From NCBI GenBank assembly GCA_903916085.1, contig CAIWVL010000163.1, positions 1-34,786 of the forward strand: a stretch of 34,786 nt of DNA, written 5' to 3'. A model generated the notes under the pieces. That model had not been told where the DNA came from. It did not search any database and saw only the letters and a list, made by a program, of their open reading frames with translations. The DNA is from an uncultured Spartobacteria bacterium (lineage in GTDB: Bacteria > Verrucomicrobiota > Verrucomicrobiia > Chthoniobacterales > Chthoniobacteraceae). Below, piece after piece: positions 17,344-19,089 of the stretch (position 1 is its first letter; every line of letters starts with the position of its first letter). Made by a program: the position numbers and the translations under genes.

Positions 17344-17428
17344 GAACCTCATGGGTTCTGAGGCGCATCCTTATCCGCCCTTTTCATGACAGTCAACGCA
17401 TCTGCCTGAACCCAAGGGGTTCACAGCG

Positions 17429-17453
17429 GGTGGTTGAGCGCAGCGACACCACC
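17429..17453. repeat. REP-like palindrome, GGTGGT...ACCACC
   Basis: A 6-bp stem GGTGGT (17429-17434) / ACCACC (17448-17453) closes a 13-base GC-rich loop containing GAGCGCAGCG. A structurally similar element is at 23865-23899 and the word CAGCGACACC recurs at 9504-9513. This pattern suggests a dispersed palindromic repeat, but other genomic copies cannot be checked here. Confidence 0.45.
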
Positions 17454-17611
17454 GGAACACACGCACATAGCCGAAGGCCCCCCAGTCCGGACGCCAGCGA
17501 CCGATCACGGTCAATACAAGGCAAACCAGTGGAGAATCTCCTGCATTCGCCGAAAATCTCCTGTTCGCTAGCCTCTATCCTTCAGAAGGTTAACGGATTT
17601 CCGAGCCGCAA

Positions 17612-17629
17612 CTGATGACAAAACATCAG
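17612..17629. promoter_or_regulatory. Small palindrome upstream of the beta-barrel gene
   Basis: CTGATG (17612-17617) and CATCAG (17624-17629) form a perfect 6-bp inverted repeat separated by ACAAAA, about 50 bases upstream of the candidate -35 at 17681. The position fits an activator or repressor site, but no family can be assigned. Confidence 0.25.
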
Positions 17630-17680
17630 ACAAATATGGCAAATGACCAAACGCCGTCATCCAAAGCGCACAAAATCGAG

Positions 17681-17708
17681 TTGACCTCCATGGGGGGGGG
17701 GGTAAAGT
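17681..17708 (+). promoter_or_regulatory. Candidate phase-variable promoter with G11 spacer
   Basis: TTGACC (17681-17686; five of six to the sigma-70 -35) is followed 16 bases later by TAAAGT (17703-17708; four of six to the -10). Eleven of the 16 spacer bases are an uninterrupted G tract (17692-17702). The predicted transcript would start near 17715, giving a short leader before the beta-barrel ATG at 17749. Slippage by one base would change the spacer between 15, 16, 17 and 18 and should alter strength. Confidence 0.5.
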
Positions 17709-17748
17709 GACATTGTTGCATACGTGCACAAAACAAACTTACTCATAC

Positions 17749-18396
17749 ATGAAAACCACCTCAAACATCCTCCTCGCACTTTTCGCAGCCGCCACCCTCG
17801 GGAGCTTGTCAGCTTCCGCTTCCGCAGAAGGCGTCTACATGCAAGTAGACGGCGGCGTAGCGATCACACCCGATGTCGGCGTAAAACTAAACACACATAC
17901 AAACCTCGGCACAATTTCGGGACGCCTCAAAACGAAAACAGGTTACGACTTCAATTATGTCTTGGGCTATCGCACCGCTGAATCCATTGCATTGGAACTT
18001 GAAACGGGTTACCAGGAGAACAGTTTCAGCGCTGTGTCTGGTTATGGAGCTCAACTCGCGGTAACAGGGAGCGCTAGCGCTGTTCCAGTGCTGCTCAATT
18101 TCGTTTGGACGCCAAAACTCTCTGAGTCGCTCAGTGCCACTTTCGGCGCAGGCGCAGGTGCCTCGGTAATAACGGCGGACATCGGCCTCCCCGGCGTCGG
18201 CAGTCTTCCGAGCGACACGAAAGTTGTTTTCGGCGGGCAGGCGAAAACTGGCCTTTCGTATAAGATCAGTGAAACTGTCTCAGCAGATCTTACCTATCGC
18301 TTGAGAGTATCGCAGGGTCCCAATTTTTCTTCTGGCATCGAGGCCAGCAAAATCACCAGTCATCTTGTGACAGCCGGTCTTTCCATCAAGTTCTAA
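17749..18396 (+). CDS. Outer-membrane beta-barrel protein
   Basis: A 215-residue predicted outer-membrane porin-like barrel. MKTTSNILLALFAAATLGSLSASASAEG is a clear signal peptide cut after ASA. The mature part is Gly/Ser/Thr-rich with alternating hydrophobic residues typical of eight to ten beta strands (YMQVDGGVAITPDVGVKL, YDFNYVLGYRTAESIALELETGY, SATFGAGAGASVITADIGL, GGQAKTGLSYKISETVSADLTYRLRV). It ends HLVTAGLSIKF with a terminal Phe, the usual beta-signal for BAM insertion. The fold resembles OmpW/OmpA-like small barrels; the ligand is unknown. ATG 17749 is favoured over GTG 17707, because the latter overlaps the candidate -10 and adds residues before the signal peptide. The promoter region carries a G11 tract and a strong terminator follows. 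Confidence 0.87.
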   Translation: MKTTSNILLALFAAATLGSLSASASAEGVYMQVDGGVAITPDVGVKLNTHTNLGTISGRLKTKTGYDFNYVLGYRTAESIALELETGYQENSFSAVSGYGAQLAVTGSASAVPVLLNFVWTPKLSESLSATFGAGAGASVITADIGLPGVGSLPSDTKVVFGGQAKTGLSYKISETVSADLTYRLRVSQGPNFSSGIEASKITSHLVTAGLSIKF

Positions 18397-18420
18397 CCGA
18401 ATTTCCGTAGGTGTGTGTTT

Positions 18421-18454
18421 CGCCGACGAGCCGACAACGCTCGTCGGCGTTTTT
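18421..18454 (+). terminator. Rho-independent terminator after the beta-barrel gene
   Basis: CGCCGACGAGC (18421-18431) pairs perfectly with GCTCGTCGGCG (18439-18449) across a 7-base loop, followed by TTTTT. An 11-bp GC-rich stem with a T tract is a strong intrinsic terminator. It could also serve the convergent lspA transcript. Confidence 0.93.
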
Positions 18455-18474
18455 ATGTCCGAATACGGCTTCCG

Positions 18475-19089
18475 CTACGGCTTAGCTGGGTTGCTTTTAC
18501 GCATGTCTTGAAACGAGGCGAGAAACAACAACACGACAGCCACGCAGATGCAACTATCCGCAACATTAAAAGCCGGCCACGGATTAAACGGTGGGAATCC
18601 CAAATCGAAATAAAGGAAATCCACTACGTAACCGTGGATTAGGCGATCGGTGAAGTTACCCAGAATCCCAGAGATCAACAGCAGCACGGCAGCCAAATTG
18701 AGACGGCCGGGAAAAATGTTGCGCTTTAGCGCCCAGCTCAACCCAAGCAGCGCTACAACCGACAACCCGATAAAGAAGCGATTGCTGTCCTGAAGTACCC
18801 CAAAAGCGGCGCCCGTATTGCTAAAGTGGACCCAGTGAAACCAATTAGGGGCCACCTCAATATGGTCACCGAGCGCCAGATGCTGACGCAGCACCGGCCA
18901 GCCGGGACGCCCAAAATCCAGCCCGGCAGTCCATAGCTTGGTGGCCTGATCCAAAAGGTACAGAACCGCCACAAAGCTAACAGCAGCGAACCACGCTAAG
19001 CTGCAACACTTTAGCGGAGCGGGAATGGCCTCAGGCTGAGGCGGCGAAGGATCCGCGATTGCACCCGATGATGGGGGATGATCACTCAT
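18475..19089 (-). CDS. lspA: Lipoprotein signal peptidase (signal peptidase II)
   Basis: Inner-membrane aspartyl protease that removes signal peptides from prolipoproteins after diacylglyceryl transfer. About 204 residues with four membrane helices. Family motifs are VLYLLDQATKLW (helix 1), NWFHWVHFSNTGAAFGVL, the catalytic block ISGILGNFTDRLIHGYVVDFLYF (first catalytic Asp in FTDR), and AFNVADSCICVAVVLLF (second catalytic Asp in VAD). The N-terminus has about 30 extra Pro/Ser-rich cytoplasmic residues. The start ATG at 19089 overlaps the ileS stop as ATGA, indicating translational coupling; ileS-lspA adjacency is common in bacteria. An in-frame extension to 19182 lies inside ileS and is rejected. 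Confidence 0.95.
   Translation of the reverse strand: MSDHPPSSGAIADPSPPQPEAIPAPLKCCSLAWFAAVSFVAVLYLLDQATKLWTAGLDFGRPGWPVLRQHLALGDHIEVAPNWFHWVHFSNTGAAFGVLQDSNRFFIGLSVVALLGLSWALKRNIFPGRLNLAAVLLLISGILGNFTDRLIHGYVVDFLYFDLGFPPFNPWPAFNVADSCICVAVVLLFLASFQDMRKSNPAKP

Follow-up and report, generated by a model that had tools for sequence, protein, structure and literature searches.

A G11 tract in the predicted promoter of a small outer-membrane barrel gene from an uncultured Spartobacteria bacterium: a candidate slippage switch

The window, as the whole stretch of 34,786 nt analysed here is called, carries at 17681–17708 a sequence that is best explained as a slippage-switched promoter from which an outer-membrane beta-barrel gene is transcribed on its own, a reading to which we assign a probability of about 0.62. 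Read directly, the site consists of TTGACC, 16 bp and TAAAGT, with 11 of the spacer bases forming a pure G run. This run ends 46 bases 5' of the ATG at 17749, and 40 bases lie between the end of the TAAAGT hexamer and the same codon. The site, the run and the 46-base distance are as given in the initial annotation of this DNA. The switch would probably be of the kind known from Neisseria and Treponema. The features are as follows.

17681..17686, + strand: predicted -35 element, TTGACC (direct read; TTGAC position kept in 4/7 genus homologues)
17687..17702, + strand: predicted promoter spacer of 16 bp, TCCAT followed by G11 (direct read; equal in length in the congener G010)
17692..17702, + strand: G11 homopolymer, the presumed slippage tract (run counts in window and genome)
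17703..17708, + strand: -10-like element, TAAAGT (TAAGGT in G010), a weak match to the consensus (4/6)
17749..18396, + strand: predicted barrel gene, 215 aa, with an N-terminal signal-peptide-like sequence (PF13505, E 3.1e-10; without a paralogue in the genome)
18421..18449, + strand: predicted intrinsic terminator, an 11-bp stem and a T run, 3' of the barrel gene

The run is the sole G11 or C11 in the window; shuffled versions of the window hold 0.11 such runs on average, and 8/100 contain one. Across the whole genome (3,701,156 bases) there are 31 runs of G or C of at least 9 bases: 19 have 9 bases, nine have 10, one has 11 and two exceed this. The run at 17692–17702 is the longest internal one. 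Poly-G/poly-C runs of 24 and 20 bases occur at contig ends (C138:1-24 and C269:16-35), and these are probably assembly or sequencing artefacts. Because runs of 10 are about half as frequent as runs of 9, the length of G11 fits the tail of this distribution and is unremarkable by itself. Judged from the comparisons described below, it is the placement of the run, not its length, that makes it more than chance. At 11 bases it passes the threshold of at least 8 bases applied to mononucleotide tracts of promoter-spacer homopolymer genes (the porA, opc and tp0126 kind), and it lies between the predicted -35 and -10 elements at a near-optimal spacing of 16 bp. Elsewhere in the genome, on contigs C354 and C379, there are two copies of a repeat that reads TTAGTGTAAGTTGA..GATGCTTGG..GGATTC and is then followed by G9 or G10.

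A promoter scan of 17344–18480 returned the G-run site as the only sigma-70-like site (9/12 match), which agrees with the promoter architecture originally proposed. Since shuffles of this region yield 0.7 such sites, the hexamers by themselves are not significant; the significance of the promoter call derives from the recurrence of the pattern before the homologous gene of G010 and from the conserved position of TTGAC. On this evidence 17681–17708 is very probably a real promoter, with TAAAGT, and above all the TAAGGT of G010, classed by their sequences as weak -10 elements. The strong terminator predicted after the barrel gene suggests a one-gene transcript. In the genome as a whole, G8 runs near TTGAC are no more frequent than matches to the reversed control (3 compared with 4), so that at most a single-locus switch is to be expected in this organism.

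The product of the gene at 17749 scores 40.9 bits against PF13505 (OMP_b-brl; gathering threshold 28.7), with profile positions 2–175 of 175 covered, and this bears out the earlier assignment to the outer-membrane barrels and makes the protein a predicted cell-surface component. The gene is single copy. Membership of the OmpW family was considered and rejected (NCBIfam OmpW, E 0.061, 12.6 bits where the cut-off is 287), and AlphaFold models were set aside (pLDDT 40 with one sequence, 28 with two).

Relatives of the window's genome (G000) were searched with the pattern TTGACN{3,15}G7TAANGT, in 12 genomes from the genus and 40 from the family. There were two matches in the 40 family genomes, one each in G000 and its congener G010, and none for the reversed control. 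Both stand before homologues of one barrel gene, the proteins being about 31–36% identical. The G010 element reads TTGAC-16 bp-TAAGGT with G9, and the 28-base elements of the two species align ungapped with 23/28 identical positions; the run in G010 is G9 since a C after the ATG interrupts the matching 11-base stretch, and the total spacing is 16 in both. No conserved gene neighbours of the barrel were found, so the promoter travels with the barrel gene.

TTGAC is found 63–72 bases 5' of the ATG in 4/7 genus homologues, namely those of G000, G010, G001 and G002 (the last two being the genomes with the closest homologues of the G010 barrel gene). In shuffles the mean is 0.11/7 and 0/20,000 reach 4, a statistic that overstates independence, as the G010, G001 and G002 homologues are related. 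The barrel genes of G001 and G002, 66% and 55% identical to that of G010, keep TTGAC and are without the G run, which is present in only 2/7 genus homologues. It follows from this comparison that the -35 element is to be regarded as old and the G run as lineage-dependent, a feature that comes and goes and would have arisen on two occasions or else disappeared more than once. In another genome of the same family (G025), TTGACATAGCGAC-G8-TAA is located ~120 bases 5' of an autotransporter-like gene, the protein of which has a PATR repeat just under the cut-off; the family may thus have another poly-G promoter here.

The proposed switch would operate as follows. The promoter at 17681–17708, its spacer consisting mostly of the G run, would drive the one-gene transcription unit for the small outer-membrane beta-barrel. 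Replication slippage would add or remove one or two bases of the run, and run length would set the distance between -35 and -10, from 16 bp at G11 (the assembly) to 17 at G12 or 15 at G10. Each shift in spacing would change the affinity of RNA polymerase, giving rise to cells with differing levels of the barrel. Promoter activity, slippage and a graded or on/off expression of the barrel gene are all steps that we infer. G12 would give a 17-bp spacing, the published optimum for tp0126, and this is consistent with an added G raising expression. Slippage is an inherent tendency of long pure runs of G. The genome carries mutS, the presence of which would dampen slippage at G11 and so counts against a switch.

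The alternative that survives best, unlikely as it is in our estimation, is that the promoter is real and the length of its G-rich spacer is held constant by selection, for example for tuning of promoter strength or for contact with a regulator, with no switching involved. The same 16-bp spacing occurs without gaps in two species, G000 and G010, whose barrel proteins share about 31–33% identity, the equivalent 11-base stretch is interrupted by C in G010, and mutS is present, all of which would suit a fixed spacer. Against this, the equal spacing rests on two sequences only, the slipperiness of long pure G runs would work against constancy, and the genes of G001 and G002 indicate that the run is unnecessary for having a promoter. 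The phase-variation reading of the initial annotation is upheld only in part: the layout and the barrel family support it, as does the independent instance in G010, but the 16-bp spacing is equal in both species. The comparison of tract length in relatives is similarly divided, with G11 in the window, G9 in G010 and absence in G001 and G002 on the one side, and a constant total spacing in the G-run species on the other, each species being represented by one assembly. The observation that the initial annotation named as refuting its reading, a G run kept in relatives at unvarying length, is matched in part by G010.

Slippage switching of the promoter is preferred also to two much weaker accounts. 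A coincidence, with a long G run of the usual sort falling between hexamers that arose by chance, gains some credit from the abundance of G9–G10 runs (29 internal or short runs of 9–11 in the genome) and from the 0.7 hexamer matches expected in the region, but is rendered very improbable because the layout recurs before the homologous gene of G010 and in none of the other family genomes searched, and the TTGAC position is conserved. Least credible of all is translational phase variation, by which a tract of G9 or G12 would bring the ATG at 17690, directly 5' of the run, into the reading frame of the barrel and fuse the two: at these lengths the window does have 19 or 20 codons free of stops ahead of the annotated ATG, and an ATG is found at the equivalent place in G010, but tract lengths of 7 to 12 give no fusion in G010, where the matching frame has stops, the extension would sit ahead of the signal peptide, and the ATG at 17690 is upstream of the predicted transcription start, with no better upstream promoter seen.

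Promoter-like sites with G runs occur more widely. GTDB r220 was scanned with TTGACN{4,10}G8TAARGT and gave 44 stretches, reduced to 26 when repeated genomes and G010 were dropped. Of these, 15/26 have A as the sixth base of the -35 hexamer, which the pattern leaves unselected (P 4e-4 against 1/4), and 15/26 have a spacing of 16–17 bp (P 0.002 against 2/7); these two excesses are as expected of real promoters. By eye, many of the matches precede genes for secreted or lipoprotein-like products. The pattern TTGACN{3,9}G8TAA has 6 matches across 384 genomes of the class, compared with 1 for the reversed control; apart from that of the window, all have TTGACA, and one of these five is the G025 site. 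The counts are small, and the choice of pattern was made once the window had been seen.

Many poly-G promoter-like sites were noticed in uncultured Bacilli MAGs (Lapin-032 bin38 and bin41), where one genome of 1.5 Mb gives 59 raw matches to TTGACN{1,6}G8, from 33 distinct runs, and 0 to the reversed pattern. They have the form TTGACTTA-G8..10-(8 bp)-TATAAT, with a spacing of 19–20 at G9–G10 (17 would need G7), and precede genes for paralogous membrane-anchored proteins (MKLEKYVDKSKKKRK...); a genome-wide poly-G promoter switch system is probable in these Bacilli. Here TATAAT lies just beyond the TAAAGT that follows the G run, so the TAAAGT is apparently not the -10 element, and for this reason TAAAGT should not be assumed to act as one; no such alternative was seen in the window. 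Lachnospiraceae MAGs carry near-identical TTGACAGAAGGCA-G10-TAAAGT sites with 17-bp spacing, in two genomes, which precede paralogous transporter-permease-like genes. Treponema and Spirochaetaceae MAGs, spirochaetes other than T. pallidum, have promoter-spacer runs of G8–G13, most of them before genes for lipoprotein-like or secreted proteins.

The best-documented switches based on G runs in promoter spacers come from pathogens adapted to a host. If true, a conserved case in this lineage would extend them to the Verrucomicrobiota, and homologues that share the -35 element but either have or lack the run would provide a natural comparison for the origin and loss of such a switch. We tentatively picture, with somewhat less than even confidence, a Verrucomicrobiota lineage not known as a pathogen in which a single spacer G-run switch controls a barrel, the run having been repeatedly gained or lost on a conserved promoter and serving something other than evasion of host immunity, such as phage receptor variation.

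Within the same phylum, slippage phase variation has been proposed for Akkermansia muciniphila from long G/C tracts (PMC3048395), but the tracts reported there are inside genes, while that of the window is in a promoter spacer. That spacer G tracts of surface genes can work in this way, as the initial annotation had stated, is documented by porA and tp0126. The stretch between -35 and -10 of porA holds 11G in Neisseria meningitidis strain 8047, and under antibody selection variants with 9G and 10G arise and expression levels change (PMC3639595). Both cases have a G run within the promoter spacer of a gene for an outer-membrane barrel; the difference is that PorA is a large porin of a pathogen under immune selection, whereas here a 215-aa PF13505 barrel belongs to an uncultured species represented by one assembly. 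The tp0126 gene of Treponema pallidum encodes an OmpW homologue and, according to PMC7864442 (citing Giacani 2015), has a poly-G between -35 and -10 and is transcribed best at 17-bp spacing. On that account it resembles the present case in the position of its poly-G before a small barrel gene, and differs in that the window protein is not a recognisable OmpW, belongs to another phylum and is known here from sequence. It and porA are the closest precedents for the G11 promoter.
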